From the NCBI GenBank assembly GCA_947650365.1, contig OX393550.1:67697744-67761743 (forward strand): a stretch of 64,000 nt of DNA, read 5' to 3'. The position numbers were made by a program, and so were the translations under genes. Every line of letters starts with the position of its first letter. Positions within the stretch are counted from its first letter, which is position 1. Source of the stretch: Chamaelirium japonicum (Eukaryota > Streptophyta > Magnoliopsida > Liliales > Melanthiaceae). Under the pieces are notes generated by a model, which searched no databases, was not told where the DNA came from, and was given only the letters and a program-made list of their open reading frames with translations. Below, one piece after another: positions 6,290 through 57,329 of this stretch.

Positions 6290-6854
6290 TGATTTGCTTG
6301 GTTGCTCCTAGTGGCTCATTGGTATGTTATAATATACATGTTGATTTGTCAATAATAGCCCAGTGGTTTTTTACCTCTCCCTTGTTGGATATTTATTAGC
6401 TATTGGGTTAAATTAGAAAAGAGCGGTTATCTTTAAAGATATTTATCTTGGAAAACTATTCTATCAATATTCTAAAACTGATTATTCTTTGTATTCCCTA
6501 AAAATAGAAAGTGGGTTCCAATGGTTGTTTAATGATTCAACTATTTCAAGATAGATTTATTTTTTAAACCATTTAATTATTTTATGGCTGTAGACACACG
6601 AATTTCGCTCGGACCCGAACCCGACTTACGTGTGCCGACGCGGATGCAAACCCGACACGCGGACCCGACTCGCGCGCACCGATGCGGACCCGGACCCGAC
6701 TCGCACCTAGCAAAGAGGAGCGGACCCCATGCCTCAAGGGGGGCCGGCCCCTACTAGGGTCCGAACCCCATGGGGCCGGCCCTTACTAGGACCCGAGCCA
6801 CATGGGGCCGGCCCTACTAGGACAAGAACCCCATGAGGGGCCGGCCGGCCTTGC

Positions 6855-6965
6855 AAGGAAAGAAAGAAAAAAAAAAGAAAAGAAAAGAAAGAAAAGAAAA
6901 GAAAAGAAAAGGAAAGAAAAGAAAGGAAAGAAAAGAAAAGGAAAGAAAAGAAAGAAAAGGAAGGA
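6855..6965. repeat. Purine-only tract (GGAAAGAAAAGAAA-type)
   Basis: About 110 bases of nearly pure A/G on the plus strand inside the 5' LTR; the counterpart is at 19860-19966 in the 3' LTR. Such homopurine mirror-like runs can form triplex DNA; no function is shown. Confidence 0.9.
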
Positions 6966-7234
6966 AATACCGCAATGCGCGGGGGGAGGTTGCGTATGAC
7001 GTCTGCACACACGCGGATCTGCTCCGATCCCTCGATCCGACGCACAAGAAGAAGCGCCTGATCGCCATCGATTTCGTGTGCGAAATCCAGCCATAATTGC
7101 ACCCGCCAGAAAAGGAAAACAACTAAATGTTATTCCCCTCATCAATGGATGAAGAAATCCCGGGTAATTATGAGAGAGATACAAAAGGGATTTAAAATTA
7201 AAAGTTCCCATATCTCTCTCCCCTCCCCTTTGCC

Positions 7235-7243
7235 TATAAATAG
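7235..7243 (+). promoter_or_regulatory. TATA box of the 5' LTR
   Basis: TATAAATAG preceded by a C/T-rich stretch, and conserved in the 3' LTR at 20232-20240. It is the likely core promoter driving the element's RNA, which would place transcription start near 7265-7275. Confidence 0.7.
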
Positions 7244-7258
7244 AGGGGGTGGGGGAAT

Positions 7259-8320
7259 GAAGAAGAGGTCGAAGACTGAAGACGAAGCGCGGGAGCTATG
7301 CAGAAGAGAAGACGCTTCTTCATCGACCCAAGGCTTCACGAGGCACAGTCAAGCCTGTCCCGTCAGGATCGGCTTACTGAAAGCCCTCATCAACGTGAAG
7401 ACCCTTGCACACGAAGATCATCCCTTCGACTCCGTGCACGAAGAAGAAAGCTCGGAGAAGAAGAACCCTTCGACTCCGAAGACGCTAGAAGCAAAGGCCG
7501 GAGAAGAAGATCGGAGCGGCACTACCCCTCGTCTCCAACAAGCCTTCAACTCCGATCAAGCCCAAAAGCCCGGAGAAGAAGAGGAGCGGCACTACCCCGT
7601 CGTCTCCAACAAGCCTTCGACTCCGATAAAGCTCAAAAGCCCGGGGAAGAAGAACGAAGTGGCGCTACACCCGTCATCTTCAACAAAGCCTTCGACTCCG
7701 ATTACGCCGAATATGCTCGGAGAAGAAGCCAACGCCACAAGGGCCGAGGTCGAAGATCGAAGACGAAACGTCGGAGCTCTGCAGAAGAGGAGACGCTTCT
7801 TCACCGACCCAAGGCTTCACGAGGCACAGTCAAGCCTGTCCCAAGGGATCGGCTTACTGAAAGTCCTGATCAACGTGAAGACCCTTGCACACGAAGATCA
7901 AGACTTCGACTCCGGGCACAAAGAAGAAAGCTCGGAGAAAAAGACCCTTCGACTCTGAAGACGCCAGAAGCAAAGGCCGGAGAAGAAGCTCGGACCGGTA
8001 CTACCCCGTCGGCTCCAACAAATCCTCGATCCCGATCAAGCTCCAAAGCCCGGAGGAGAGAAGCGAAGCGTCATCACCCCGTCGTCTTTGACCAACGCCT
8101 GCACTATCCACGAAGAAGAAAGCCTGGAGCAGATCGTCTGAAGCGTCGCTACCCCGTCGTCTTCATCAACAAAAGCCGACGCTATAACCGTCGCTACCCT
8201 CGTCGTCTTCATCAATAAAAGCCGACGCCACAATCGTCGCACGGAGATCGGTGCTACCCCCACTATCTTCGAAAGCATTCTTCGACTCCGATCACGCCAA
8301 AGAAGCCCAGAGAAGAAGAG
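7259..8320. repeat. Tandem array in the 5' LTR (two ~482-bp units with ~70-bp sub-repeats)
   Basis: The block containing CTTCTTCATCGACCCAAGG recurs at about 7314 and 7796 (spacing 482). Within the units a roughly 70-bp sub-repeat with GCCTTCGACTCCGATCAAGC and AAAGCCCGGAGAAGAAG recurs. The 3' LTR has the same array with four large units. Confidence 0.85.
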
Positions 8321-9021
8321 AAGTCCAGTCGACACGCAAACCGTCGAAGCACCGAAGAAGTAGCCCACGTCGTTCGAAGAAGAAGATCGAGTTGACGCTG
8401 AAGCTAAAGCCAATGCAAGAAGCCAAAGCAAAGCCCCAGTAAAGCCCGCGCCAAAGCAACGCAAGTGCCAAAGCCAAGCGACTACGCCGGCCACGAGCAA
8501 AAGCACCGCACGTTCTAGCCGATACGACGCGAAGTCCGGAAGAACGAAAGCATCGCAAGTCTCTCCCAGCTACGTCCAAGTGCAAGCGCCGAAACAAAGC
8601 AAAAGCCAGAGCCACGCCGGAGCCAAGCCAAAGCCAAAAAGCCAAAGCCAAAGCCAACGCCAAAAGCTCGATCGACGCCGCGAACCGACGATCAAGGACA
8701 CCGAGGTCAAGCAAGGAACGAGGAAGACACGGAGACCGAGGAACGAAGCCGAAAACCCCCTAGCCGAGAAAGCGCGAAGCACGGAAGGGACAAAGCAACG
8801 GTGGACATTCCTTAGCCTCTCCAAAACCCTATCCCTGTAAAGACCCCTGTCCTGGGCAACTCCTTCAGAGCTCTCGCACGAACACCACGTGGAGACACGG
8901 ATCAAAGGGATCCCCCAGAAGATCTTTCCCATAATCCCCTGATCAAAACTCGCCGCAACCCGGACTCACTACACCCGAGCCACCCGGGTCCCGGCCACAC
9001 TTGTAATCTCGTGTGATTCGC

Positions 9022-9027
9022 AATAAA
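9022..9027 (+). terminator. Polyadenylation signal AATAAA in LTR
   Basis: AATAAA lies about 30 bp before the LTR edge, and the same hexamer is at 25523-25528 in the 3' LTR. It is the likely 3'-end processing signal of the element RNA. Confidence 0.6.
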
Positions 9028-9062
9028 GACGACCCACGCTTTTTTCCCGTGCTACAGATTTC

Positions 9063-9080
9063 TGGCACGCCCGGTGGGAC
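9063..9080 (+). other. Primer-binding site
   Basis: TGGCACGCCCGGTGGGAC lies six bases after the 5' LTR. It starts with TGG, complementary to a tRNA 3' CCA, and resembles the TGGCGCGCC-type primer sites of Tat-lineage Gypsy elements. The exact primer tRNA was not determined. Confidence 0.75.
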
Positions 9081-9128
9081 CTCTTCTCCTTTCATCCGTA
9101 CGGTTGAAGAAGCTGCTTGAAGTTTGCG

Positions 9129-12100
9129 ATGGCCGGAACGAACAACGATGCGTTTGCTCCAAGCCTCTCACCAATCGCCGAGTCTCCTCTACTCCGACAC
9201 GGTGATCCAGTAAATCCAGAGGGTGATGCTCCTCCAATGGTATGCGTCTACACTCGGCGTACTCGGACTCGTGCGGACGTCTTCGTGCCGGAAGCTACTA
9301 CCGAAGATGCTCGCCAAAGCACCGACGAGGCCCTGGTGCTTGAAGAAACGAGCCTCGATCCTGGAGCCCATGTCCAGAAGTTTGGGGAGGACCAGCCCCA
9401 ACCCCGAACCCGTTCGGGTTCTCCAACAGACGTTGCACCTCCTCTGCAGGGGGCAAACATCAATCATCAGCCAGAAGCAAGTCGGCGTAACTACGTCTCC
9501 GATGATGATGGCGAGGATGCGAACATGCAACACCGAGACGTTCTCCGTCACCACCCTCCGTCCGCTCTTCAGCTCCAAGTCATGCAGATGAACGAGCACA
9601 TGGCGCAGATTACTCGGCTAATGGAGGAGAAGGATCGTCACATCAACACTCTGTTCCAAAAGCTAAGCGCGAAGGACGCTGCAGCAGTCGGCCAACCCGT
9701 CGCTTCTCCAGTAGCCACTCCAGTTCCGTCTTCAACTCCCGCTCCTGCAGAAGTTGCTCCGACGGTTCAAGCAGTTACTCCAGCGCTCTCCTCGGCTCCC
9801 GTCCCATTGGAAATCGTCTCCCCAGCGCCAGCCTCGGTGGCCACACAACCTCCGACAACGGCAACGATGAATGCTCAGCAAGTCCAAGCATTGATAGCCG
9901 ATATGATGCGCTCCCACGGCAGTAGCCTTCCTCCGATCACGACGGCATACTCGAAGCCCTACACTGCGAGGATCCAGCAGCTACGCTTCCCAATCGGATT
10001 CCAGCCACCAAAGTTCCAGCACTTCGACGGAAAGGGAAATCCAAGACAGCACGTCGCCCACTTCATCGAGGCCTGCAATAATGTCGGCACATATGGCGAC
10101 GAGATGGTGAAGCAATTCGTTCGCACCCTCAAAGGCAACGCGTTCGACTGGTATGTTGATCTTCCTGCAGGGACCATCGACAGCTGGGATCAGATGGAGA
10201 GGGAGTTCCTCAATCGCTTCTACAGCACCAGACGAACCGTCAGCATGACCGAGCTTACCGCCGTCAAGCAAAGGAAGGACGAGCCGGTGATCGACTACAT
10301 CGACAGATGGAGGAACCTTGCGCTGAATTCACGAGACCGCTTGTCTGAAGACTCGGCCATCGAGATGTGCACCCAAGGCATGCACTGGGGTCTGCTCTAC
10401 ATCCTCAAAGGTATCAAGCCTCGGTCTTTCGAAGAACTCGCAACTCGGGCTCATGACATGGAACTCAGCCTAGCAAACCGCGGGGACTCGAAGAACAAGG
10501 ACTTCTTGAAGGTGGAGAAGAAGGACAAGCCACCGGCACCAAAACCAAAGCAAGTCAACGTTGCTGATGTCGCTCTAACCTCCAAGCCGCTCAAGATCGG
10601 TGGCACGCCAGATCAAAAGAAGGGCGTCGCCGTACCGCCGCCTCCGAGACAAAGGATGGCTCTAGAAGAGCTCGAAGCCAAGGAATACCCCTTCCCAGAC
10701 TCGGAAGTCTCCTCTATGTTCGACCAACTGCTGCAAGAGAAGATGATAGAGCTCTCTCCTTCGAAGAGGCCCGAGCAGATGCATCGCGTCGACGACCCTC
10801 TCTTCTGCAAATACCACCGGGTGGTGAGTCATCCTATTGAAAGATGCTTCATCTTCAAGGAAAGAATCATGGCGCTCGCTAAGCAAGGGAAGATAGAGAT
10901 CGACTCCGGAGAGGTTGCTACGGCCAACATGACGTCCATCACCTTCGGCTCCTTCTCGTCGGTGCTCGGTGCTGCTCGGCGAAGCATGCCCAAATTGCGC
11001 ATCAACCGTCAAGCTCCAATCGCTAAGTCAACTTCCCAGCCGAAAGTCTCGAAGCGACGTCAACGTATTCCTGCGTTCACCGAGGATGAAACGTCGCTGC
11101 CCTGGGGGCAACCATCGCTCACACCAGCACCTCTTCCAAGCAATACTGCATCCCAACGAGCGCTCCAAAGGAGATACGAGCAAGGAGATCCAGAAGTCGG
11201 TTTGCTGGGCCAGCCTTCGGGGAAGTTCGACTATTACGTCCTCTACTCAAGGCCTCCGTCCGTTCCAATCGACGAAATCAAGCCCGCCGGCTGGGGATCG
11301 GGAGACGAGCCAGTGGAACCTCGAGAAGAGCAAGTCCCTTCCAGTCAAGATATGTCCCAACGCGCTCTTCGGGAAAGATACGAGCAAGGAGATCCAGAAG
11401 TCGGTCTGCTGGGCCAGCCTTCGGGGAAGTTCGACTATTACGTCCTCTACTCAAGGCCTCCATCCGTCCCAATCGACGAAATCAAGCCCACCGGTTGGGG
11501 ATCAGAAGACGAGCCAGTGGAACCTCGAGAAGAGCAAGTCTCTTCCAGTCAAGCTATGTCCCAACGCGCTCTTCGGGAAAGATACGAGCAAGGAGATCCG
11601 GAAGTCGGTCTGCTGGGCCAGCCTTCGGGGAAGTTCGACTATTACGTCCTCTACTCAAGGCCTCCGTCCGTTCCAATCGACGAAATCAAGCCCACCGGCT
11701 GGGGATCGGAAGACGAGCCAGTAGAGCCTCAGGAAGAACAAGTGCCTTCGAGGGAACCAGTTGCTGCTGTCGACCATCATCCTAGCGAAGGGGAATCCAC
11801 CGATGAAGAAGCATGGGTCATGCTACCGTGGCGGCGAAAGCCATGGCAAGAAAAGAAGCTCAAACAAGACCGTGTGATGAGGGGATTCACCAAGCGGAAG
11901 ACCTACAAGAAGAAAAGCAAGACTCCGGGGAGGAAGGCGTTCAAAGTGCCGCCAGCAAGCCAAGACGATATCCTTCAGCAGAGTCTTCCAGAGCTGACAA
12001 CTTTGCAAGAGTTCTTCCCGGATCACTTCCTCCCAGCGGACCAACACATCAAGGTGTCTTGTTGCATGGTCGAAGTCCATGAGGCATCGGAAGGAAAGAA

Positions 12101-13364
12101 CGAGAGCGAAACTTCTGGAGAAGGCGACTCCACAGATGAGGGAGACGATTCCGACAAAGGGGGCACCGCCTCTCACGACGAAGCAATCTTGCACATACCG
12201 CTCGTAGAGGCTTTGCATCTCCCGAAGAAGGCTCGCCTGGCAATAGCTGCGGCCTTGGCCGATCCGGATAGCTACAAGAGGAAGAGGAAGGATGATCAAA
12301 GGCGCAAAGCTGTGGTATCGTGTGATGCAACGATAACCTTTTCGGATGAGGACCTGCAACTCGGGACGCGATTGCACAACCGGCCTCTTTACGTTTCGGG
12401 ATACATCAAGGAGAAGCCAGTGAACCGAATCCTGTTGGACTGTGGCTCCGCCGTCAACATCATGCCTATCCAGACAATGCGGCAACTCGGCATTACCAAT
12501 GACCAGCTCTCGCCCAGTCAATTGGTTATCCAAGGGTTCAACCAAGGCGGACAGTCCACTATTGGAATCATTCGTCTGAAGCTGTCAATCGGCCCGCTAG
12601 ATACAACAGTCCTCTTCCACATCATCGATTGCCAGACGTCATATCGCCTCCTGTTGGGAAGACCATGGCTGTACGAGAACGGCATCGTGGTATCCACCTG
12701 GCACCGGTGCCTCAAGTACTACGAAGAAGGTGTGGAGAGGTGCATAGTTACGGACGACAAGCCATTCAACGAGGCCGAGGCACACTTGGCCGATGCTAAG
12801 TTCTACCAAGCAAAGGTCTTAGTCGCGGAAGTTCTTCCAGCTAAAGCCCCTCGAGTCCAGAAAATTGAAGAAGTAAAGAAGGACAAGACTTCTCTTCCCG
12901 TGAATCCGGCGCCACCCTCTGACGAGGCAAGACTCAAGGTCCAAGGAACGCTGAAACCTGGGCAAAGGATGTGCATCAGCTTCGAGCCAAGAGCAATGCA
13001 CCATACACCGTTGCCAATCCAAACGGTGCCTGTCCTGCGTCTCGCGCCGCAGTGGCTCCGTAAATCCGAGCGATCGCCTTCTACTCCGATAAGGAAGCTG
13101 GCCCCGTCGTTATCTCAGGCCAATGTCATCACTCTGCAAGAAATGACGGTGCCATTACCTAGTCTGACGCAAGCTCCGAGCCCAAGCAAACCCGTCGAAT
13201 CAGCAGACCTCGAGCAACTCGGATTCAAGCCAGAAGGGAGTTGGGGGCAAAATGCTGCCCAGTTGCTGTTCAGAGCCGGCTACAACGAGGAAAGCGACAT
13301 GGGCACACCCCCACCAGCAGCAACTCCACATGGGATGACGAGAACTCAAGCTCGGCTGTTTTAA
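9129..13364 (+). CDS. Gypsy Gag-protease polyprotein with internal 68-residue triplication
   Basis: An uninterrupted 1411-residue frame beginning at the first ATG after the PBS (MAGTNNDAF). Residues about 290-455 are a retrotransposon gag domain (PKFQHFDGKGNPRQHVAHF, NAFDWYVDLP, EREFLNRFYS, WRNLALNS). A zinc knuckle is not apparent. Residues about 675-875 hold three in-frame 68-residue repeats with the core YEQGDPEVGLLGQPSGKFDY. Residues about 1070-1200 are a retropepsin-like aspartic protease with active site LLDCGSAVNIMP (D1104). The usual Ser/Thr after Asp is Cys, a variant I recall from other plant Gypsy proteases. LLLGRPWLYENG marks the protease end. The frame ends at a TAA, after which the same frame stays open to 14165. 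No pol domain follows. The product would form particles and process Gag only. Confidence 0.9.
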   Translation: MAGTNNDAFAPSLSPIAESPLLRHGDPVNPEGDAPPMVCVYTRRTRTRADVFVPEATTEDARQSTDEALVLEETSLDPGAHVQKFGEDQPQPRTRSGSPTDVAPPLQGANINHQPEASRRNYVSDDDGEDANMQHRDVLRHHPPSALQLQVMQMNEHMAQITRLMEEKDRHINTLFQKLSAKDAAAVGQPVASPVATPVPSSTPAPAEVAPTVQAVTPALSSAPVPLEIVSPAPASVATQPPTTATMNAQQVQALIADMMRSHGSSLPPITTAYSKPYTARIQQLRFPIGFQPPKFQHFDGKGNPRQHVAHFIEACNNVGTYGDEMVKQFVRTLKGNAFDWYVDLPAGTIDSWDQMEREFLNRFYSTRRTVSMTELTAVKQRKDEPVIDYIDRWRNLALNSRDRLSEDSAIEMCTQGMHWGLLYILKGIKPRSFEELATRAHDMELSLANRGDSKNKDFLKVEKKDKPPAPKPKQVNVADVALTSKPLKIGGTPDQKKGVAVPPPPRQRMALEELEAKEYPFPDSEVSSMFDQLLQEKMIELSPSKRPEQMHRVDDPLFCKYHRVVSHPIERCFIFKERIMALAKQGKIEIDSGEVATANMTSITFGSFSSVLGAARRSMPKLRINRQAPIAKSTSQPKVSKRRQRIPAFTEDETSLPWGQPSLTPAPLPSNTASQRALQRRYEQGDPEVGLLGQPSGKFDYYVLYSRPPSVPIDEIKPAGWGSGDEPVEPREEQVPSSQDMSQRALRERYEQGDPEVGLLGQPSGKFDYYVLYSRPPSVPIDEIKPTGWGSEDEPVEPREEQVSSSQAMSQRALRERYEQGDPEVGLLGQPSGKFDYYVLYSRPPSVPIDEIKPTGWGSEDEPVEPQEEQVPSREPVAAVDHHPSEGESTDEEAWVMLPWRRKPWQEKKLKQDRVMRGFTKRKTYKKKSKTPGRKAFKVPPASQDDILQQSLPELTTLQEFFPDHFLPADQHIKVSCCMVEVHEASEGKNESETSGEGDSTDEGDDSDKGGTASHDEAILHIPLVEALHLPKKARLAIAAALADPDSYKRKRKDDQRRKAVVSCDATITFSDEDLQLGTRLHNRPLYVSGYIKEKPVNRILLDCGSAVNIMPIQTMRQLGITNDQLSPSQLVIQGFNQGGQSTIGIIRLKLSIGPLDTTVLFHIIDCQTSYRLLLGRPWLYENGIVVSTWHRCLKYYEEGVERCIVTDDKPFNEAEAHLADAKFYQAKVLVAEVLPAKAPRVQKIEEVKKDKTSLPVNPAPPSDEARLKVQGTLKPGQRMCISFEPRAMHHTPLPIQTVPVLRLAPQWLRKSERSPSTPIRKLAPSLSQANVITLQEMTVPLPSLTQAPSPSKPVESADLEQLGFKPEGSWGQNAAQLLFRAGYNEESDMGTPPPAATPHGMTRTQARLF
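11150..11755 (+). repeat. Three in-frame 204-bp tandem repeats within gag
   Basis: The word CAAGGAGATCC recurs at 11181, 11385 and 11589, an exact 204-bp (68-codon) period with very high identity between copies. A single diverged unit is in the downstream duplication (about 13945-14150). The repeat keeps the frame open, so it expanded under a frame constraint or by chance of period. Confidence 0.92.
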
Positions 13365-15406
13365 AACGGAGAACAAATTCCCCCGAACTGCCGAGGCATC
13401 GGCTCCAGTCAAGCTCCGTTGGTCATCAGAACCGCAGCAAAGAAGACCTTCACCTCGAACTACATCGAGGCGAGGATGGTAGATGAAGCAGCTGAAGGAT
13501 CGACAATCTCCGATGCACTCTCTACCTACCTCAGCCATCCAGACAGCAGGAGAAGACGACGACGGGCTCGATGCCAAGCCTTGTTCCGAAAACAAACCAG
13601 AGGTGGTAAAGACTGGTCGAATCGAAAACGCACATCCGTGTTCGAGAGGCTCGGGCCAGTCAAACAATCAAAGAAGAAGTCGGCATTCGATCGTCTGGGG
13701 ATGCCAATCGAGGACTTCGTCTCAACACCCACCCACCCACCCGTGGCGGCCGTCCATCATATCTCCATTACGGATCCCGACAACGGTGACACTTCTACTT
13801 CGGACGACGAATTGCAAGATGCCCCGTCGGTCCTTGCAGAAGGGGGGCAGTCCACCGTTGATGACTCAAAGAAAGGGGGCAGTCCAAGAAGACGACGACG
13901 ACATACTTCTTCAGTGCCTAGGGCCAAATCCTTACTGTCTTGGGGGCAACCGTCTCTCATGCAAGCACTCCCTCTTCCAAACGAAGCTACGTCCCGGCAC
14001 CTGCTCAAAGCTAGAGACGAACAAAGAAGCCCCGAAGTCAACCTGCTAGGCCAACCATCGGGCAAAATTGACTATTATGTCCTCTACTCCGGCCTCCTTC
14101 GATTCCAAATGAAGAAATCAAGCCAACCAGCTGGGGATCAGAAGATGAATCGGTACGGTCTCTAGAAGTGCAAGTCCTTCTGATCAAGGAAGAGCCTTCA
14201 GTCGCAACACCAGTTCTTCACCTTGGCGAGGAAGATCTTAACACATGGGCTATGACGCCTTGAAGGAGAAGGCCACGACGATCAAGCTACAGGATAGCAC
14301 GCCTAGCTAACCATGAGAAAGATCGGGCGACAAGAAAACTCCTCAGAAGAAAGTCCTTCAAGGAAAAGAATGAAGCTCCAGGAAGAAAGACGTCCAAAGT
14401 ACCACCAGCAAATCTGAAAAATCTCCTCCAACAAAGCTTTCTAGAGCCAGTGACACTCCAGAAGTTCTTTCCTATTTGCTTCCTTGAAGCTGGTCAAAAC
14501 TTCAAGATCTCCTGCTGCATGATGGAAGTTCACCAAGTGCTCCGGAAAGACGATGAAGAAAGCGGCATTAACATCGAAAGCATGGGGAGAAGCATCGCTG
14601 CCAACGACAAGCTGTTCAACAAGGCTAAAGCACACCTTGCTGATGCCGAGTTTTACCAAGTGAAAGATCCCGTTGCAGAAGCTCATCCAGCAAAACCTCT
14701 ACGAGCTCAGGGAGTCAAAGCAGCTGCGAGGGACAAAACCTCTCCACTTGCAAAACTAGTGACATCCTCCATCCAGACAGCGCACAAAGACAAAGAAGCG
14801 CCAGTTCCAAGACGGAAAATTCACATCAACTTCAAATCAAGCTCGATGCGATGCATTCCGTTGCCTGCTCAAGTTGCTTCAGTCCTACGGCTCGTACCTC
14901 AATGGCTTCGCAAACCAGGACGATCGCCTTCCCCTCCAGCAAAGGAACCAGCGTTATCATTCTTCGGGGCCAACTTCAGCACTTTGCAAGAGATGACACT
15001 ACCGTTACGTGATCTGTTGCACATCTCGAGCTCAACCGAGTCTTCCGAGCGCACCAGCTCTGAGCAACTCGCAATCAAGTCAGAAAACACTCGGGGGCAA
15101 AACTCCACCGAGTCGATGTTCAAATCCAGCCGCAGTAAAGAAAGCATGGCACACATGGGTTCACTACCCTCAGCTGCAATACCACATCGCCTGACAAAGA
15201 CTCAAGCTCGTCTCTGCAAAAGCGGCGAACAAATCCTTCCAAATTATCGGGGCATCGACTCCAGTCAAACTCCAACAATCATCAAAACTCCAGTCAAGAA
15301 GATCTTCACTTCCAACTATATTGAAGCGAAGAAGGCGGGCGATAGCTGCGAACCAGTGGCGACTTTGCCTACCAGTGGCAAGTCCCTCAAAAGGTACTTT
15401 GCCTAG
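13365..15406 (+). pseudogene. Continuation and decayed duplicate of the gag 3' region, protease core missing
   Basis: Beyond the TAA at 13362-13364 the same frame continues (through FTSNYIEAR near 13450) to 14165. From about 13930 the sequence is a diverged second copy of 11090-13490: WGQPSL, a single 68-residue-type repeat (LLGQPSGKIDYYVLYS), then after a frameshift near 14095 the frame 14450-15406, with ISCCMMEVHQ, AKAHLADAEFYQ, VLRLVPQWLRK, LTKTQARL and FTSNYIEAK. The protease block of the first copy (about 12130-12750) is absent: MMEVHQ leads within about 35 residues to NDKLFNKAKAHLADAEFYQ. At the site of the upstream TAA this copy reads Lys (AAA), so the stop may have arisen by one substitution. 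Probably non-functional. Confidence 0.75.
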
Positions 15407-15419
15407 CGCAAGGTTACCC

Positions 15420-15530
15420 CCCTTGCCAAAAAAAAAAAAAAGGGAATAAACGAACTACGTGCGACTTGATCCCTCTCAGTAGGGTACGTAGGCAACCTAC
15501 AAAGGTTCAGTCCAGACAAAAAAAAAAAAA
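15420..15530 (+). other. Conserved Tat-type untranslated motif after gag
   Basis: GAACTACGTGCGACTTGATC followed by CAGTAGGGTACGTAGGCAAC resembles a sequence block found downstream of coding regions in plant Tat/Ogre Gypsy elements. It is flanked by two A13 runs. Function unknown; recognition is by memory of the family. Confidence 0.5.
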
Positions 15531-15617
15531 CATCCCAACGTCGTCCCAGGAGGCCAGTCCAGAGGCAAGTGAGTGCATAACCATCAATCCGGTCAGCAAA
15601 CTAAAGGATGACAAGAA

Positions 15618-16262
15618 AGTCAAAGTCTTTGAGGCGTCAAAGCAGCTCGCCTTCCGCAGCTTACACGCGCTGCAACTCTAGGGGTAAAGAAGCTGTCAAC
15701 TTCCGACGCGTCGCCAGCTATGCACGCTGCTTCGCAAGGATCGCTCCGGCAGCCTTCTCGATCACTCCACCCGCTCCCGGCAATTCGTCAGCTCTTCACG
15801 CTGCTTCGCAAGCTCTACTCCAAACGTCTTCTCGGTTGCTCGAGCTTTCCCCAAATGGAACTCCAGCTTCTAAAGCGACGCACGAGTAGCAAGTCGAAGT
15901 CCTTAAGGCGCCGAAGTGGCTCGCCCTCCGCAGCTTACACGCGCTGCAACTCCAGAGGTAGAAAAACCGTCAGCTTCCGACGCGTCGCCAGCTATGCACG
16001 TTGCTTCGCAAGCTCTGCTCCAGACATCTTCTCGGTCGCTCGAGCTTTCCCCAAATGAAACTCCAGCTTCTAAAGCGACGCACGAGTGTGGCAAGTCGAA
16101 GTCCCTAAGGCGCCAAAGTGGCTCGCTCCCAACAGCTTACACGCGCTGCAATTCCAGGGGTAGGGAAGCAGTCAACTCTCGACGCGTCGCCAGCTTTCCG
16201 CTGCTTCACAAACTCTGCTCCAGAAGTCTTCTCGGTCGCTCGGGCATTCTCCAGCTTCTGAA
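15618..16262. repeat. Tandem ~200-bp repeats in the Gypsy interior (three units)
   Basis: Units begin near 15618, 15893 and 16094 with CAAAGTCTTTGAGGCGTC or CAAGTCGAAGTCC-type words and share CAGCTTACACGCGCTGCAA and CGACGCGTCGCCAGCT. Unit 1 is about 275 bp because of an internal insertion or partial duplication; unit 2 is 201 bp. Confidence 0.85.
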
Positions 16263-17046
16263 GCGATGCTTGACGTCTCTCCCCCTCAGTCGCAGCTAAG
16301 CCCAAGGAAGCGTCTTCCAGCGAAGACCGTCGTAAGCAATGAAGCTCGCCACCCTCCAAAGAAGGTGCGCATCTGCTCCGCAGAAAAAGAATCGTTGCCT
16401 TGAAATCCACCGGGCTCATGCAAAAGCTCAGGCCCACCTGAAGGATGGAAACTGCCACTGAAGTCAAAAGCAGCAACCCGAAGAATGGCGGACGCATAAA
16501 CAACAACCGCAGCCTTCGTGACCTCCACAAAGCCAAAAGAACCACTGGAGCTGTCATCAAGGTCAAGATCGACAAGCAAAAGACAACCAAAGCAGTCTAC
16601 TCCTTGTTGATGCTCGTGGCCTCGTCATCCACTTCAGAACGCCCATCTCGGTGTCCTTCAAGCTGACATTGCTACCAGAAAGGTGCAACCTCGCTAGTAA
16701 CTCTAAACCCGCGGTTGACCTCATCAATAATCTAGCCAGCCTTCGGAAGGTACTCAGGGGGACGAATCTTGCAAGGATATGAAAAGTGCAAGACCGATCG
16801 AGAGGTAAAGTCAATTCCGAAAAAAAAAAAAAGGAGCCACCTTCCCTGGCCTTCAACGCCTCCGACTCATCCTCGCACCAGGCGATCGCCACCACACTCG
16901 GCTTCGTCTTTTCGCCGTGCCGTTGTCATTATGCTCCCGCACCAAGAAGACGATAACACTCCGCTGAAGAATCTTTCGACTCCAAGCCGCCGAAGAATGC
17001 TTCGCCGCCAAGACTGAAGCTTTCGTCTTCGCGAGCCGTCGAAGAA
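16263..17046. other. Non-coding Gypsy interior
   Basis: No domain recognised in either strand. Short frames only, with a poly-A run near 16820. No pol motif such as YVDD, a DDE or an HHCC pattern is visible. Confidence 0.6.
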
Positions 17047-17706
17047 TCCTTCGTCTTCAAGCCGCCAAAGGAGCTTTCGTCTCCAAGCCATCGAAGAAGC
17101 CTTCGTCTCCAAGCCGACGGAAGCCTTCGTCTTCAAGCTCCGCGCACCATCGCCGCCGCCGCCGACGAAAGAGGCGACACCGGGAAGACGGAGCAAGTCT
17201 CGTGCAACCCCAGGCAGCACTCTTCCGCCGACGGTCTCCAAGCATCGAAGAAGCCTTCGTCTCCAAGCCGACGGAAGCCTTCGTCTTCAAGCGACGCGCA
17301 CTATCGCCGCCGCCGTCGACGAAAGAGGCGACACCGGGAAGACGGAGCAAGTCTCGTGCAACCCCAGGCAGCACTCTTCCGCCAACGGTCTCCAAGCATC
17401 GAAGAAGCCTTCGTCTCCAAGCCGACGGAAGCCTTCGTCTTCAAGCTCCGCGCACCTTCGCCGCCGCCGTCGACGAAAGAGGCGACACCGGGAAGACAGA
17501 GCAAGTCTCGTGCAATCCCAGGCAGCACTCTTCCGCCAACGGTCTCCAAGCATCGAAGAAGCCTTCGTCTCCAAGCCGACGGAAGCCTTCGTCTTCAAGC
17601 GACGCGCACCATCGCCGCCGCCGTCGACGAAAGAGGCGACACCGGGAAGACGGAGCAAGTCTCGTGCAACCCCAGGCAGTACTCTTCCGCCCCCGGCCTC
17701 CAAGCC
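17047..17706. repeat. 154-bp tandem repeat array (four or more copies)
   Basis: The word CTTCGTCTCCAAGCCGACGG starts at 17101, 17255, 17409 and 17563, an exact 154-bp period with near-identical copies. Each unit also has AAAGAGGCGACACCGGGAAG and CCCAGGCAGCACTCTTCCGC. A further partial copy lies at 19334-19432. Because 154 is not divisible by 3, the overlapping long open frames here (for example 17202-17774 and 17287-17880) are shadows of composition. Confidence 0.95.
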
Positions 17707-19333
17707 TGACACCGCCTTGTCGCTCGAGGCACCCCTGTGCCGCACGGTGTCCGCACACCACCTGCGCCACCTGAAGCCTGGCCACCGCCCGGCCAACCCG
17801 GAGACGCCGCCGTTACCACTGCGTCCCTTCTCCAACACGATCGGGGCCCGCCTGACTCGGAGTCGCACCGCCGTTGCCACCGCGTTCCACCTCCGACCCG
17901 ATCGGGGCCCGCCCGACTCAGCGTCGCACCGGCGACCGCCATCGTTGCTTCTGCGACCGCGCCGGGCCTACGCGCCACTCACTCCCGGCCCCCACGCCGC
18001 GCGTACTACAGCCCGCACTGTGGGCCGTCGCCACCGCTACCCGCTCCGACAGCCGCGCCGCATGCAGCCTTCGCGGACCGGAAAAAAAAAGAAAAAAAGA
18101 TAGCAGCAGCAGCCGGGGGGGCGAGCCCCCCTCCCCAATCAGCACCTGACACCAAAGGAAAAAAAAAAAAGGAAGGAAAGAAAGAAAGAAAAAGGGGGGG
18201 CTTGCAGCCCCCCTCCTTCGCTGGCCGACTCGGGGACGCCGGCCCGACTCCACCCGTGCGCCACCTCCGCTGGCCACCGCGCCCGACCAAGCCGTCGCCG
18301 CCCCGGCCTCTGGCCTCGCACCACCCGCGCCCGGGCCCACCACCGCGACGCCCCAGCCGCCCCGCGCCAGGGCCCCTCCGCGCGTGCCGCAGCCACCGCC
18401 GCTCGCCCGCGCGCCGCCCGCTCGCGCCCCGCGCCAGGGCCCCTCCGCGCGTGCCGCAGCCCGTGCCGCGACCTCCGACCTGCGCCCGGGCCGTCGCCGC
18501 CACCGCAGCACCGAGCCGCTGCTGCCGTTGCCCTTGCAGACCAGAACCAAAGGAAGAGAAAGGAAAGAAAAGAAAAGGAAAAAGAAAAGAAAGGAAAGAG
18601 AAGAAAAGGAAAGAAAAAAAAGAAAAAGAAAAAAAAAAAGAAAAAAGAAAAGGCGAGACCAATGAAAAAAAAAAAGGGAGGAGTTAGAGTCGCCATACCT
18701 GACCCGCGACGACTCCACCTCCTCTCTCTGTGCCGTCATCATCGCTTTCGGCCACGACAACTCCACCTCCTCTCTCTGTGCCGTCATCATCGCTTTCGGC
18801 CACGACAACTCCGCCTCCTTCTCTCGTTACGCCTGCGTCATCAACCTCGGCTGCGATAATCGGCCTCGCCATTGCACTCCCACACCGAAGAAGGGGCAAT
18901 AGTCCTCCGCCGAGATGCACCGTGGCCGTCCTCACGCTCCAGCCGCCTTCGTGCCACACTCGAACTCCGTACAGCGGCCACCTTCGACGTCCGTGCAATC
19001 TTTGGAGCAAAAGAGGTCCGCAACGAAGAAGATGATCGAAACCATAGCGAAGGTCTTCTCTACAAGCAAGAGCCACAACCAACTGCTCGCACCGGCACCC
19101 AGCTCTGCGCGCCGCACGCCGCTGGCCTCGTGCCCAGCCGCCGCAGCCCTGGCCGACCCTGCCACTGCCGCTGCAGCTCCCGTGGTCCATAAAAAAAAAA
19201 GGGAAGAAGAAGAAAGAGGAAGAGAGAGGCGACGAAGGCAACTCGCACCTCAGCCGCGCTCCTCCATCCTCCCTGCCTCGATCCTCGCCGCATCGTCGCT
19301 TCGAGCCCGCCTTCGCAACGATCGCCAAATCGC
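17707..19333. other. GC-rich low-complexity segment splitting the 154-bp array
   Basis: About 1.6 kb of C/G-rich sequence with A/G homopurine runs (18080-18100, 18155-18205, 18540-18660), a roughly 69-bp duplication (CCAGGGCCCCTCCGCGCGTG near 18370 and 18439) and a 49-bp duplication (CCGTCATCATCG at 18732 and 18781). The long Pro/Arg/Ala-rich open frames on both strands reflect composition. I see no protein family. It lies between the array and a detached partial array copy, so it may be an insertion. Confidence 0.6.
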
Positions 19334-19432
19334 GCACCATCGCCGCCGACGAAAGAGGCGACACCGGGAAGACGGAGCAAGTCGCGTGCAGCCCCAGGCA
19401 GCTCTCTTCCGACAGCGGTCTTCAGAAGCCGG
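19334..19432. repeat. Detached partial copy of the 154-bp repeat
   Basis: CGCACCATCGCCGCCGACGA followed by AAAGAGGCGACACCGGGAAG, GGAGCAAGTC and CCCAGGCAG matches the unit at 17047-17706 with more divergence. Confidence 0.8.
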
Positions 19433-19583
19433 CGGAACCTTCGCGAAGAAGCACAAAGGCGGATAAAAAGGGGTAGGGGTCCTTAAATAGACTCCTAACC
19501 CCGCCCACAAAAGGAATCGAGGACAAGTGCTCTACGATTCCTACGTGTCCAAACCCTACACGCTCTCACCATCGCACTCGTCC

Positions 19584-19596
19584 TTGAGGGGGCATT
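19584..19596 (+). other. Polypurine tract
   Basis: TTGAGGGGGCATT directly precedes the 3' LTR start TGTAGACACACG. It is the expected plus-strand primer for reverse transcription. Confidence 0.75.
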
Positions 19597-20258
19597 TGTA
19601 GACACACGAATTTCGCTCGGACCCGAACCCGACTTACGTGTGCCGACGCGGATGCAAACCCGACACGCGGACCCGACTCGCGCGCACCGATGCAGACCCG
19701 AACCCGACTCGCACCTAGCAAAGAGGAGCGGACCCCATGCCTCAAGGGGACCGGCCCCTACTAGGGTCCGAACCCCATGGGGCCGGCCCCTACTAGGACC
19801 CGAGCCAAATGGGGCCGGCCCTACTAGGACCCGAACCCCATGAGGGGCCGGCCGGCCTTGCAAGGAAAGAAAGAAAAAAAAAAGAAAAGAAAAGAAAGAA
19901 AAGAAAAGGAAAGAAAAGAAAGGAAAGAAAAGAAAAGGAAAGAAAAGAAAGAAAAGGAAGGAAATACCGCCATGCGCGGGGGGAGGTTGCGTATGATGTC
20001 TGCACACACGCGGATCTGCGCCGATCCCTCGATCCGACGCACAAGAAGAAGCGCCCGATCGCCATCGATTTCGTGTGCGAAATCCAGCCATAATTGCACC
20101 CGCCAGAAAAGGAAAACAACTAAATGTTATTCCCCTCATCAATGGATGAAGAAATCCCGGGTAATTATGAGAGAGATACAAAAGGGATTTAAAATTAAAA
20201 GTTCCCATATCTCTCTCCCCTCCCCTTTGCCTATAAATAGAGTGGGTGGGGGAATGAA

Positions 20259-22330
20259 GAAGAGGTCGAAGACTGAAGACGAAGCGCGGGAGCTCTGCAG
20301 AAGAGGAGACGCTTCTTCATCGACCCAAGGTTTCACGAGGCACAGTCAAGCCTATCCCGTCGGGATCGGCTTACTGAAAGCCCTCATCAACGTGAAGACC
20401 CTTTCACACGAAGATCATCCCTTCGACTCCGTGCACGAAGAAGAAAGTTCGGAGAAGAAGAACCCTTCGACTCCGAAGACGCCAGAAGCAAAGGCCGGAG
20501 AAGAAGATCGGAGCGGCACTACCCCGTCGTCTCCAACAAGCCTTCGACTCCGATCAAGCCCAAAAGCCCGGAGAAGAAGAGGAGTGGCACTACCCCGTCG
20601 TCTCCAACAAGCCTTCGACTCCGATCAAGCCCAAAAGCCCGGAGAAGAAGAGAAGCGGCGCTACACCCGTCACCTTCAACAAAGCCTTCGACTCCGATCA
20701 AGCCCAAAAGCCCGGAGAAGAAGAAGAGCGGCACTACCCCGTCGTCTCCAACAAGCCTTCGACTCCGATCAAGCTCAAAAGCCCGGGGAAGAAGAAAGAA
20801 GCGGCGCTACACCCGTCATCTTCAACAAAGCCTTCGACTCCGATTACGCCGAATATGCTCGGAGAAGAAGCCAACGCCACAAGGGCCGAGGTCGAAGACT
20901 GAAGACGAAGCACGGGAGCTCTGCAGAAGAGGAGACGCTTCTTCATCGACCCAAGGCTTCACGAGGCACAGTCAAGCCTGTCCCGTCGGGATCGGCTTAC
21001 TGAAAGCCCTCATCAACGTGAAGACCCTTGCACACGAAGATCATCCCTTCGACTCCGTGCACGAAGAAGAACCCTTCGACTCCGAAGACGCCAGAAGCAA
21101 AGGCCGGAGAAGAAGATCGGAGCGGCACTACCCCGTCGTCTCCAACAAGCCTTCGACTCCGATCAAGCCCAAAAGCCCGAAGAAGAAGAGGAGCGGCACT
21201 ACCCCGTCATCTCCAACAAGCCTTCGACTCCGATCAAGCCCAAAAGCCCGGAGAAGAAGAGAAGCGGCGCTACACCCGTCACCTTCAACAAAGCCTTCGA
21301 CTCCGATCAAGCCCAAAAGCCCGGAGAAGAAGAGGAGCGGCACTACCCCGTCGTCTCCAACAAGCCTTTGACTCCGATCAAGCTCAAAAGCCCGGGGAAG
21401 AAGAACGAAGCGGCGCTACACCCGTCATCATCAACAAAGCCTTCGACTCCGATTACGCTGAATATGCTCGGAGAAGAAGCCAACGCCACAAGGGCCAAGG
21501 TCGAAGACTGAAGACGAAGCGCGGGAGCTCTGGAGAAGAGGAGACGCTTCTTCATCGACCCAAGGCTTCACGAGGCACAGTCAAGCATGTCCCGTCGGGA
21601 TCGGCTTACTGAAAGCCCTCATCAACGTGGAGACCCTTGCACACGAAGATCATCCCTTCGACTCCGTGCACGAAGAAGAAAACTCGGAGAAGAAGAACCC
21701 TTCGACTCCGAAGACGCCAGAAGCAAAGGCCGGAGAAGAAGATCGGAGCGACACTACCCCGTCGTCTCCAACAAGCCTTCGACTCCGATCAAGCCCAAAA
21801 GCCCGGAGAAGAAGAGGAGCAGCACTACCCCGTCGTCTCCAACAAGCCTTCGACTCCGATCAAGCTCAAAAGCCCGGGGAAGAAGAACGAAGCGGCGCTA
21901 CACCCGTCATCTTCAACAAAGCCTTCGACTTCGATTACGCCGAATATGCTCGGAGAAGAAGCCAACGCCACAAGGGCCGAGGTCGAAGATCGAAGACGAA
22001 ACGCCGGAGCTCTGCAGAAGAGGAGACGCTTCTTCACCGACCCAAGGCTTCACGAGGCACAGTCAAGCCTGTCCCGAGGGATCGGCTTACTGAAAGCCCT
22101 CATCAACGTGAAGACCCTTGCACACGAAGATCAAGACTTCGACTCCGGGCACGAAGAAGAAAGCTCGGAGAAGAAGACCCTTCGACTCCGAAGACGCCAG
22201 AAGCAAAGGCCGGAGAAGAAGCTCGGAGCGGCACTACCCCGTCGGCTCCAACAAATCCTCGATCCCGATCAAGCTCCAAAGCCCGGAGGAGAGAAGCGAA
22301 GCGTCATCACCCCGTCGTCTTCGACCAACG
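20259..22330. repeat. Expanded tandem array in the 3' LTR (four units)
   Basis: Unit spacing is about 626, 610 and 481 bp. The last unit corresponds to the second unit of the 5' LTR. The 70-bp sub-repeat (CCGTCGTCTCCAACAAGCCT then TCGACTCCGATCAAGC) recurs several times per unit. Confidence 0.88.
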
Positions 22331-23036
22331 CCTGCACCATCCACGAAGAAGAAAGCCTGGAGCAGATCGTCTGAAGCGTCGCTACCCCATCGTCTTCATC
22401 AACAAAAGCCGACGCCACAACCGTCGCACGGAGATCGGTGCTACCCCCACTATCTTCGAAAGCATTCTTCGACTCCGATCACGCCAAAGAAGCCCGGAGA
22501 AGAAGAGAAGTCCAGTCGACACGCAAACCGTCGAAGCACCGAAGAAGTAGCCCACGTCGTTCGAAGAAGAAGATCGAGTTGACGCTGAAGCTAAAGCCAA
22601 TGCAAGAAGCCAAAGCAAAGCCCCAGTAAAGGCCGTGCCAAAGCAACGCAAGTGCCAAAGCCAAGCGACTATGCCGGCCACGAGCAAAAGCACCGCACGT
22701 TCTAGCCGATACGACGCGAAGTCCGGAAGAACGAAAGCATCGCAAGTCTCTCCCAGCTACGTCCAAGTGCAAGCGCCGAAGCAAAGCAAAAGCCAGAGCC
22801 ACGCCGGAGCCAAGCCAAAGCCAACGCCAAAAGCTCGATCGACGCCGCGAACCGACGATCAAGGACACCGAGGTCAAGCAAGGAACGAGGAAGACGCGAA
22901 GACCGAGTAACGAAGCCGAAAACCCCCTAGCCGAGAAAGCGCGAAGCACGGAAGAGACAAAGCAACGGTGGACATTCCTTAGCCTCTCCAAAACCCTCTC
23001 CCTGTAAAGACCCCTGTCCTGGGCAACTCCTTCAGA

Positions 23037-25375
23037 GCTCTTGTTAGAATTGGTGAGGTCTATAGCTCGTAAAAACCTATAGTTTAGCTATGTATGGTTG
23101 ATAGTATAAGATTGCATCTAGGTACGTACCTTAGTACGTGTTCTGATTACAGAACAGAGAGCCATGGCTACATGGTAATCCTCTTGAGTGGGAGACTCAA
23201 GGGACTGGTCCCATCTAACCTAAATACGTTCGCAGCTCTGATTAGGGTTGGTCGCCCTATCAGGTTAAGCTGTTGGGATGACAGAGCGTGGGTGTCTCCA
23301 CCACGGTCATTACCAGGCACAGTGTCTGTGGCCGAACGGAACCAACACGGTGCACAGATCGGTGAGCAAACACCGGTGCACTAAACCGTGTTTCTGCTTA
23401 GGGTAAAACGGTCCTAAACCCTGAGGAACCATGTCTGGTGGACTAACCAGTTGTGTGGTGCTTTGGCGCACCAATGTGTGAGGATCCGGATACAGTGATC
23501 CAAAACCACGGTGTACTGGGTTACCCGGCTGGCGTTGCATCAGCATATCACTCCTGCAGGCTATCCACACCCCTAACGGGAGGTGCGTTCCTTGGTCTGA
23601 CCTAAGTCGTATTAAACCCTGGCCAGGTGGTCATCAGTTGGACTGGTGATGGATTCGGTTGCTCATAAGTGTAATCGGAGGTACGATGTATGTGGTCAAC
23701 CTGGAAGGAACCGCGTCATATGAGCACTCGAGTCTGACGGTATTCTCCATCGCTCGAGTTGCGTCATGGCACCAGTGGAGGGACAGCGGGTTTACCGTAC
23801 TAAGCGGAGAGCAGGGATATGAGGGAGAACATAGTAAGTCCGGGGGAATTGGAGTGCAGCCTGCGTCGCACTCTGGGTGGCTACGCAGGTTAACTCGGAC
23901 TCAGAGGATCGATGGTACACTCGGGTAGTGTGTCGATCGAGTCTGAGTTGGAAGCCATGAACCCTGGTCCCTGAAGGTTCCACCTTATCGACATTATGTA
24001 TGGTTCTTATACCATCTCCTCGAAACACAGAACGTAGTTAGAGGAAGCGAGAAGTCCAAGCATACGCTCCGTGAGTGCTTCGCACTAGTGCACGGTAGAT
24101 GCGTAGCTACGTGTGTGCACTAAGGGGAAACCCTAGGTTAGTGCAGAGACGCATGTAGCAATTCCTTGCCATAAGTGGACTTTGCCACATGGGTGCGATG
24201 CACCGGGACATGTTGCGAGTTGACTAGTTGACTTCACTAGGGGCACCCTACGGGAACCTCAGAGAATAGTGAAATCACTGGTGCACTTCACTTATGTGTG
24301 CCTTGCAAAGTCTCGTACACGAGGAACGGTCAACTAGTGGCATAAGGGCGTTTTGGTCATACCATGCGCCACTATGCACTAAGGGGGCCGGCCCTAAGTG
24401 TTGAGAGACTGGTCAAGGCCGGCCCCATTAGTTTCGGGAGGTTGTTGCCTCCGATGAAGGGGCTGGTTATGAGGCGCAGAAAACGGGCTGGTTTTGACCG
24501 TTTTCGAAAACAAAGAAAGAATAGAGATAAAGAAGAGATATATAGGGATAAGGTTTGAATCAATCATCCTTATCCATACTGTCCTTATCCATATGGATAG
24601 GCCGGCTATATATATGAGAAGGAGAGAGAGGGTGCACGAAATTAGTAGCATGGGCAAGCCCTAGGGCCGGCCATGCAAGCCATGGGGAAACCGAAGCCCC
24701 TCTTCTCTCTTCGCATCTCCTCTCTCGTCTCTCTCTCCCTCGCTTGCGCCATTGGATGGCGACTCGTCTTCCTCGCATGGTGTTTTCGTAGAAGGAGAAG
24801 GCTCGTCGTATGGAGGCACTCAGAGATCCATCGACGAGGTGCCGTGCATCGTGTGAGATCGGGTGAACTAGAAGGCGTCTACCGCAACCTTTTGCTGTCC
24901 AGAATCTGCACAGAAAATCAACGTTATTTCTGCGATTCCGGGATCTACAGAAGTCCAAACGACGTGAAACTTGTTGGAAAAGTTGCGTCTCGAAGTTGGT
25001 TACCTGCAGTCCAAATTTCAGCCCAATCCGAGTTCGGAGCAGAAAGTTATGGACGTCGTACCGAAGCTATGTCGAGCAGATCCGTAGCCCGTCTCCATCG
25101 ACAAAGAAGAAATTTGTCGCGGTGAAAGATTCCGCACGCAGGTATGATCTCTAACAAGTAGATCTAACATAATTAGAACATGCATACATGCTAGATTGTT
25201 CTTTTGCGTTAGATCGTCGTTAGGGGTTCGCGTAGTTGCCATGCTAGTTTCATACACGCATATGTAGATCGTTTCGATGAAAATTTTGATATGTAACGCA
25301 CATCGCCTACGGTCCTCGGACCTTCACTTTGCTTCCGCTGCGGGCCTCTACCATGGATCTATTTCCAACAGCTCT
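23037..25375 (+). mobile_element. Nested LTR-type insertion (probable 2.33-kb solo LTR)
   Basis: The 5' LTR reads continuously across this point, while the 3' LTR is broken. The insert 23042-25370 begins TGTTAGAATTGG and ends TTTCCAACA (TG...CA ends with the imperfect inverted pair TGTTAGAA/TTCCAACA) and is flanked by the 5-bp duplication GCTCT (23037-23041 and 25371-25375). It has no coding domain, no internal second LTR that I can see, and a TATA-like run (TATATATATGAG near 24608) followed by transcribed-leader-like sequence. A solo LTR left by LTR-LTR recombination is the simplest reading. Confidence 0.8.
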
Positions 25376-25562
25376 CGCACGAACACCACGTGGAGACGCG
25401 GATCAAAGGGATCCCCCAGAAGATCTTTCCCACAATCCCCTGATCAAAACTCGCCGCAACCCGGACTCGCTACACCCGAGCCACCCGGGTCCCGGCCTCA
25501 CTTGTAATCTCGTGTGATTCGCAATAAAGACGACCCGCGCTTTTTTCCGACTCCACAATGGC

Positions 25563-28007: not shown

Positions 28008-28690
<683 letters not shown>

Positions 28691-33393: not shown

Positions 33394-34669
33394 TTAAACT
33401 TGATATCCCTTGAGTTGCCACAAATGCTCTATCAAATCATTTTGAAGTTGGTTGTGGGTTTCCCTGCTCCTTATCCGATGATGGTTCTGGATAAACTCCA
33501 TCAGATGCACCGTGTGCTCGTGAGAAGCTTCTACAGTTGGCGTTACATCGGGGACATCAAAGTCAAGATCATGGTGAAGATCTCGTTCATCTTCAACAAT
33601 CATATTATGCATTATAATGCAGGCTGTCATAATGTCTATAAGCATATTCGGCTGCCAAAAACGTGCCGGTCCTCTTACTATCGCAAATCGGGCTTGCAAC
33701 ACTCCAAAAGCTCGCTCGACATCCTTCCGTGCCCCCTCTTGCTGTTGAGCAAAATACTTATTTTTGTTTCCTCGAGGTGCTGGGATGGTCTTCACTAGTG
33801 TTGACCATGAGGGGTAAATCCCATCGGCGAGATAGTATCCCATATTATAGTCATGGCCATTGATTATAAAATTACATGGGGCAGCTCTTCCCTCTGCAAG
33901 TTGCCTGAAGACCGGTGAACGATCGAGGACGTTGATATCATTGTGCGACCCTGGCAGCCCGAAGAAGGAGTGCCAGATCCATAAATCTTTGCTAGCTACA
34001 GCTTCTAAAATAATTGTTGGCTCATGAATATGGCCAGTGTACATACCTTGCCAAGCTGTTGGGCAGTTCTTCCACTTCCAGTGCATGCAATCAATGCTTC
34101 CGAGCATGCCTGGAAACCCTCGTTGTTCACCTTCTGCGAGGAGTCGTGCAACATCTTCGTTATTGGGTGAACGAAGATACTCCTCCCCAAAGACGTTGAT
34201 GACCGCTCGAACAAACCTCTGCAAGCTCTCGATCGAAGTACTTTCTCCGATCCGAACGTAGTCATCCACGGAATCAGCGGATGCTCCATACGCGAGCATC
34301 CGCATAGCGGCAGTAGTCTTTTGAAGACTGGATAGTCCTAATCTTCCAGCATTGTCCCTCTTTTGGACGAAGTAGTTGTCGTGGTCCACGATTGCGTCGT
34401 GGATCCGCAGGAAGAGAGGACGACTCATCCTGAATCTCTGTCGGAACTGGTAAGGAAGGTAAGTTGACTGATCAGCGAAGTAATCCTGGAATAGCCGATT
34501 ATGGCCTTCCAGTCTATTACGATCAAGCATGGCGTGGCCTGGTACAGAGCCGCGTCTTAGCTTACTGCTCTTCCTCGCACGCGGTGGCTCCCAGAAGAAA
34601 TAACATTCTACGGGTGGAGCTATCGTCACTGCTGCTCGACGTGCTGTCGGTGGAGCTCAAACTGGACAT
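33394..34669 (-). CDS. Harbinger DDE transposase, nearly intact
   Basis: Catalyses cut-and-paste transposition at TTA targets. The main open frame is 34629-33394 (411 codons from the first non-stop codon). Motifs, numbering from 34629: RRGSVPGH (26-32); the FRMSRPLFLRI helix region (66-76); and the DDE_Tnp_4 triad GSIDCMHW (D180), GSHNDINVL (D231) and ERAFGVLQARF (E305). The C-terminus is CIIMHNMIVEDE and then QLKGYQV before TAA. All catalytic residues are present. The likely native ATG is at 34669 (start MSSLSSTDSTSSSSDD, typical of the family) but is in another frame, so a one-base indel near 34625-34632 separates it from the main frame. Downstream starts exist (for example the ATG in GHAMLDRN), so a shortened product is conceivable. 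Confidence 0.9.

Positions 34670-52432: not shown

Positions 52433-52487
<55 letters not shown>

Positions 52488-53046: not shown

Positions 53047-53141
<95 letters not shown>

Positions 53142-57245: not shown

Positions 57246-57324
<79 letters not shown>
57246..57324. repeat. (GA)n microsatellite
   Basis: About 39 GA units within a broader AGAGAG-rich region (57100-57330). Confidence 0.95.

Positions 57325-57329
<5 letters not shown>

Follow-up and report, generated by a model that had tools for sequence, protein, structure and literature searches.

Plant elements that lack pol have been described before, some of them beside a putative or presumed partner. TR-GAG elements are defined by having only GAG, or GAG plus AP, between their LTRs (PMC6022998). 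In wheat, RLG_Sabrina_SA, which is called semi-autonomous, and RLG_WHAM are described as encoding GAG and protease but neither RT nor INT; both are present in high copy, and a different Gypsy family is presumed to mobilise them (PMC9744471). Maize Zeon codes for GAG and Cinful for the polyprotein domains, and the two are described as an interdependent pair (PMC8547701). Cinful-1 and RIRE2 are listed under Retand in a classification that gives a second RNase H, placed between RNase H and integrase, as the feature that marks Tat elements of angiosperms (Ogre or Retand), and that reports two ORFs in Ogre (PMC6317226).

We analyzed a stretch of 64,000 nucleotides, called the window here, from Chamaelirium japonicum (contig OX393550.1, 67697744-67761743; genome 1.52 Gb). 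The element that it contains probably belongs to a pol-less ("semi-autonomous") subfamily that has propagated within a Tat-type (Ogre/Retand group) Ty3/gypsy family. Pol-type relatives, with which it appears to share its gag pool, would mobilise it. Its features, in window coordinates, are as follows.

6584-6588, target site duplication ATGGC, left copy (exact 5-bp repeat)
6589-9056, + strand, 5′ LTR, 2468 bp, TG..CA ends
9063-9081, + strand, primer binding site (PBS), complementary to the 3′ end of tRNA-Arg(TCT)
9117-13361, + strand, gag-protease open frame; first ATG at 9129, 1411 codons, stop at 13362-13364
10116-10385, + strand, Retrotrans_gag domain (capsid), PF03732, E 4.8e-13; phmmer match to Arc, E 9e-5
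11172-11749, + strand, 204-bp (68-codon) repeats within gag
12396-12671, + strand, retroviral-type aspartic protease region, weak profile match to PF13975 (gag-asp_proteas)
13365-13866, + strand, protease-to-RT linker (followed by RT in pol-type copies), common to both classes of copies
13867-15367, + strand, block replacing pol, a diverged second gag C-terminal half without the protease part, ~65% nucleotide identity
15368-15406, + strand, frame end, resembling the C-terminus of the partner polyprotein
15407-19190, + strand, largely class-specific non-coding tail, tandem repeats at 15785-16253 and 17079-17705
19191-19585, + strand, 3′ interior
19586-19596, + strand, polypurine tract (PPT) GAGGGGGCATT, identical in one pol-type and four pol-less relatives
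19597-25557, + strand, 3′ LTR, 5961 bp, TG..CA ends, lengthened by tandem units and a nested insertion
23042-25370, nested TG..CA insertion inside the 3′ LTR, solo-LTR-like, target site duplication GCTCT
25558-25562, target site duplication ATGGC, right copy (exact 5-bp repeat)

The target site duplication, matched LTR edges, PBS and PPT that a preliminary description had claimed were all located at these positions. The high LTR similarity claimed there holds for substitutions (K2P 0.020 over 1491 unambiguous bp, tandem stretch excluded) but not for length, the 3′ LTR being 5961 bp vs. 2468 bp for the 5′ LTR, a surplus made up of tandem units and the 2.3-kb nested insertion. With an assumed substitution rate, the window copy inserted about 0.8 My ago. 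Over its first 18 bases, the PBS is complementary to the 3′ end, CCA tail included, of a tRNA-Arg(TCT) whose gene was found in the same genome; a 20-base pattern for this tRNA end had four genome matches, and ARAGORN called a tRNA at one of the two places checked. The protease match (gag-asp_proteas, E 0.0022) scored 19 bits, below the Pfam cut-off of 28.2. Neither an Rfam family (gathering threshold) nor a tRNA was found in the window. Outside the host genome, an IMG/VR search gave 12 pattern matches and zero relatives, and a plasmid search gave zero matches.

The same description had reported an interior without pol genes. When the translated pol of L031, a genomic relative, was compared with the window by tblastn, the best match had an E value of only 3.6, so that this query revealed neither a degenerate RT nor an integrase in 13.4-19.6 kb. 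The absence of pol was borne out, but 13.9-15.4 kb is not blank, as it holds the second, diverged gag segment. The 1411-codon gag-protease frame, described as uninterrupted, is indeed open over 9129-13361, but the frame of the relatives runs on: in open-framed pol-less relatives a single frame of ~1965-2102 codons spans gag, protease and block, and the window frame is such a frame shortened by a premature stop (13362-13364). With a one-base deletion in the block and the nested insertion as further defects, the window copy has decayed since its insertion and is now broken.

Relatives of the element fell into two classes. A genome protein search with gag gave 24581 loose candidates, of which the best 33 were scored; 30 loci were fetched, and these are the copies nearest to the window gag rather than a random sample. 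After the linker, 20 of the 30 copies continue with pol, and 10 (the window copy, L001, with L003, L004, L009, L015, L019, L023, L024, L025 and L029) with the same 1.5-kb block; none shows a plain gap. The preliminary description had allowed for a simple deletion, with other copies carrying pol at this place. Pol does lie exactly here in the 20 copies, but as the remaining 10 hold the block instead, the change is more than a simple deletion. The linker alignment reaches window position 13866 in 29 of the 30 copies and 13863 in L024, and in pol-type copies pol starts directly after 13866. One copy counted as pol-type, L018, has its pol interrupted by other DNA after ~300 bp and is at most a candidate for autonomous status. 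The copies are scattered over many contigs.

Both classes have the PBS, PPT, LTR edges and gag-protease in common. A PBS with 0-2 mismatches was present in all of the 30 copies but one (L011, where it was not found), and the PPT was identical in all five relatives that extend to it. The four pol-less copies that were followed further all keep the order of the window as far as the 3′ LTR, gaps in the tail aside, and window positions 19191-19456 are 93% identical to L031. In both pol-type copies that were read further (L031 and L032), RT, RNase H, a second RNase H and integrase were present, which agrees with the proposal of a probable autonomous partner with the same PBS, PPT and LTR edges. In each of the two, RVT_3 (849-968) lies between RT_RNaseH (696-797) and rve (1141-1236). 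With RVT_3 taken as the second, putatively archaeal-type RNase H domain, the partner would bear the Tat (Ogre/Retand) mark; its single gag-pol frame points to Retand rather than Ogre, a pointer that is only suggestive.

Genome searches with the class-specific parts returned many close matches, their candidate numbers not being copy counts. The block protein search gave 7020 candidates, of which the best 84 were scored (89-100% identity); 70 of these 84 had no internal stop, and 44 belonged to frames that stay open for 1965 codons or longer. With the tail probe there were 1122 first-look candidates, the best 40 of which were scored at 97-100% identity, with five short partial matches at 74-83% in addition. 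The pol search gave 30112 candidates; the best 42 that were scored were all stop-free at 99-100% identity, and 38 of them lay in frames of at least 2546 codons. The open-frame counts (44 of 84 and 38 of 42) come from best-scoring matches and are biased to intact copies. The best-scoring pol-type copies are very recent by their identity; the one LTR pair dated is that of the window. These searches, together with the block found in 10 of 30 copies, support the earlier proposal of a pol-less family that has moved recently and retains gag-protease.

The commonest frame lengths in the two classes were spaced by 68 codons, that is, by one 204-bp gag repeat unit. In the best 84 block matches, frames of 2033 codons (21 matches), 2101-2102 codons (nine) and 1965 codons (three) were found, and in the best 42 pol matches frames of 2614 codons (31), 2546 codons (two) and 2682 codons (one). 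The number of repeat units appears to vary in pol-type and pol-less copies alike. Gag alleles common to both classes would produce such spacing, and so would recurrent slippage.

The block is ~1.5 kb long. Over 13888-15213 it is 64-71% identical in nucleotides to the C-terminal half of gag, with the protease part missing, and it retains the order and orientation of gag close downstream of it. This arrangement is the one that an old tandem duplication within a single element would leave, and no block donor was found in the genome among the best-scoring matches examined, all 84 of which were at least 89% identical to the block. Among the alternatives, such a duplication survives best, and we regard it as doubtful. 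The tail patches and the frame end are also just ~67% identical to their counterparts in the partner, as if the whole middle had come from a diverged lineage, and the block would then be a segment from a diverged relative. Near the junction, a short linker motif is repeated ~30 bases further on; the repeat may be a trace of microhomology at the original joining.

Four block-containing frames of pol-less relatives had no Pfam match at E 0.01, nor had the 1022-aa tail frame of L034 at 0.001. The block frame is broken in the window copy and open in many relatives. Block dN/dS was 0.61 in 13 copies with open frames and 0.74 in five copies; in the same five copies, dN/dS was 0.21 for gag and 0.44, 0.47 and 1.41 for the non-coding tail read as codons in its three frames. 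The block values fall inside this noisy control range (0.44-1.41), and no amino-acid constraint on the block was demonstrated. Because the non-coding yardstick is too noisy, frame conservation was used for the block. We compared 14 block copies: the 10 picked by gag, over about the first 1 kb of the block (one of them, L019, being the reference copy itself), and four of the six picked by tail (L047, L048 in part, L049 and L052; the interrupted L050 and L051, which had no match, were dropped). Frame-breaking indels were present in two of the 14 copies (the window copy and L015), and the remaining indels were 9 or 18 bases long; in-frame stops, one each, were present in five of the 14 within the block stretch examined. 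For the tail, 26 of the 40 scored rows covered the whole 771-bp probe, the window row included (14 were dropped), and 14 of the 26 had a net length off by a non-multiple of three. Judged against these tail indels, the block frame is kept.

The dN/dS test of gag (pairwise NG86) gave 0.217 for pol-less copies (45 pairs, 10 copies) and 0.213 for pol-type copies (190 pairs, 20 copies), with 0.303 within the group of six pol-less copies that includes the window copy. By these ratios, gag is constrained in both classes (~0.21). Class labels were set from structure, ahead of tree building. In the tree of 30 gags the classes were interleaved, with eight label changes, six of them forced by starred branches (mean of shuffled labels, 8.5). 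A single clade for the 10 pol-less gags was rejected (lnL 605 worse, p-AU 1e-93), also when each gag part was taken separately (5′ part, P = 6e-12; 3′ part, P = 2e-31). Four extra copies, two per class, were compared over 850 bp of gag with the 33 other sequences; each had its closest match in the opposite class, one of them as a tie. Because the panel is mostly pol-type (20 of 30), this result counts for little by itself. The copy L024 grouped with the pol-type L018 in the gag tree (99/100), inside the other main gag clade, and with the window group in the tree of the first kilobase of the block (100/99). The two copies differ by one mismatch in 9076-11755, four in 11756-12142 and 111 in 12143-13837, and on this comparison L024 has a recombination breakpoint near 12.1 kb, where an L018-like gag meets a different downstream part. 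The simplest explanation of the interleaving would be exchange of gag between classes, and gag looks like a common recombining pool across them.

Interleaving could also have arisen by ectopic gene conversion among inserted DNA copies, with no template switching between RNAs packaged together. The long, nearly identical tracts are what conversion would leave, and they are equally compatible with template switching; the copies lie on many contigs, and their class-specific parts have not been homogenised, and we regard gene conversion as improbable.

The preliminary description had read the intact gag as a sign of selection for the element's own capsid. On this reading, gag of the pol-less class would be a self-sufficient lineage selected since the class split off, comparable to Quinta gag vs. 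Cereba gag. In general, selection on its own gag can explain why a non-autonomous element has a long-lasting working gag, and a dN/dS of 0.217 among the pol-less copies is what it predicts, as are the 44 long open frames in a sample that favours intact copies. But the value is the same in both classes, the pol-less gags are interleaved with pol-type gags, and one of them carries a breakpoint; a lineage of its own is thus very unlikely, and this claim was not upheld. As the pol-less gags form no separate lineage and one shows a breakpoint, constraint may act largely in the autonomous partner and reach the pol-less class via recombination. Low gag dN/dS here coexists with gag exchange with that partner, and a dN/dS test alone would therefore mislead.

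The remaining alternative is that an autonomous element underwent a single internal deletion or degenerated here, leaving a copy without a family of its own. It would suit the broken state of the window copy but is refuted by the structure common to 10 of 30 copies and by the close identity of the best block and tail matches, so that we give it next to no credence.

We therefore return to the propagated pol-less subfamily. In the mechanism that we infer, intact pol-type relatives would supply the RT, RNase H and integrase that reverse transcribe and integrate the element transcript in trans; these relatives have the same PBS, PPT and LTR ends and nearly the same gag-protease. The pol-less polyprotein would consist, in order, of gag, protease, linker, the protease-less second gag C-terminal segment and the C-terminus of the partner's polyprotein. 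The pol-less form probably had a single origin, by non-homologous joining at the end of the protease-RT linker; since junction and block are shared, independent origins would hardly account for the interleaving. The pieces joined would have been the 5′ part of the partner and a diverged relative already without protease and pol. Pol-type and pol-less RNAs have presumably recombined since, most simply by template switching when co-packaged, and the outcome would be pooled gag-protease and LTRs with a block and tail that stay class-specific.

A stronger version, which we put forward only tentatively, is that the two classes are a single recombining population, dimorphic only in its middle. The LTR-gag-protease cassette would be common, and the middle would be either pol or the second gag segment, without protease and with its frame kept. 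In that case pol-less copies would represent a stable allele of a two-part replicon and might act as gag donors or particle modifiers; template switching would keep renewing them, so that their gag never ages.

The element has LTRs with a target site duplication, a PBS and a PPT, as TR-GAG and semi-autonomous GAG-Pro elements do. Its interior corresponds to GAG or GAG plus AP only (gag clear, protease weak, no match to the relative's pol), and it has propagated as a family. Its PBS and LTR termini are in common with a pol-carrying family, one of the relations used for partner pairs in PMC9744471, where activity in the same period, co-expression and actual trans-mobilisation are the others. A LARD, with no coding domain between large LTRs, is ruled out by the gag domain and the long open frame. 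Thus, the element belongs to the known semi-autonomous GAG-Pro kind, and it is unusual in having a replacement block derived from gag and in how far gag is shared. As autonomous and pol-less forms, many open copies and class-specific middles occur together, the family lends itself well to measuring exchange between partners in a natural setting.

TR-GAG, as defined in PMC6022998, is a structural label that implies neither partner nor recombination, unlike the relation described here. As in Sabrina_SA and WHAM, gag-protease is kept, RT and INT are absent and copy number is high; those elements are described as having hardly any homology to their presumed partner Wilma (PMC9744471), whereas here LTRs and gag-protease are nearly the same and are exchanged. 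In Zeon and Cinful, gag and pol are described in separate copies (PMC8547701), whereas pol-type copies here hold gag, protease and pol in one frame. Rice Dasheng and RIRE2 are similar in pairing a non-autonomous element with a putative autonomous partner, and chimeric elements are reported for them (PMC5473765). There is also a likeness in layout to RLG_Quinta and RLG_Cereba of einkorn, where a single Quinta ORF combines gag with an additional segment whose function is unknown, Quinta has lost RT and INT, PBS and LTR ends are shared, and the lineages have recombined (PMC11302176). That pair is centromeric, and Quinta gag is described as strongly different from Cereba gag (PMC11302176), whereas in the present family gag is interleaved with that of the partner and the extra segment is itself derived from gag.

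Among the best-matching pol copies in the host genome, all 42 of those scored were stop-free and shared 99–100% protein identity with L031, the genomic copy whose translated pol served as query. This combination of near-identity and uninterrupted frames indicates that amplification of the autonomous pol-type family was very recent.

A tandem module at window 20262–22320 in the 3′ LTR of the gag-protease element exceeded its counterpart in the 5′ LTR by approximately 1.1 kb. The 3′ LTR was also interrupted at 23042–25370 by a nested 2.3-kb TG..CA insertion flanked by a GCTCT target site duplication. A search for terminal repeats belonging to this nested insertion itself found none, and in this it resembles a solo LTR from a different family.

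Downstream of the element, the window contained an open frame:

33394–34629, minus strand, 411 codons, Plant_tran (E = 3.6e-104) and DDE_Tnp_4 domains

We take this frame to be a Harbinger-like transposase. Further along, satellite-like diverged repeats formed an array at 36502–38193 (mostly 72–75% identical, at many offsets). The region 52435–53139 was self-complementary (82% match to its own reverse complement across 662 bp), including a perfect stretch of 84 bases. Two inverted copies of an approximately 90-bp sequence (28311–28420 and 57231–57333; 96–98% identity) are possibly MITE ends.
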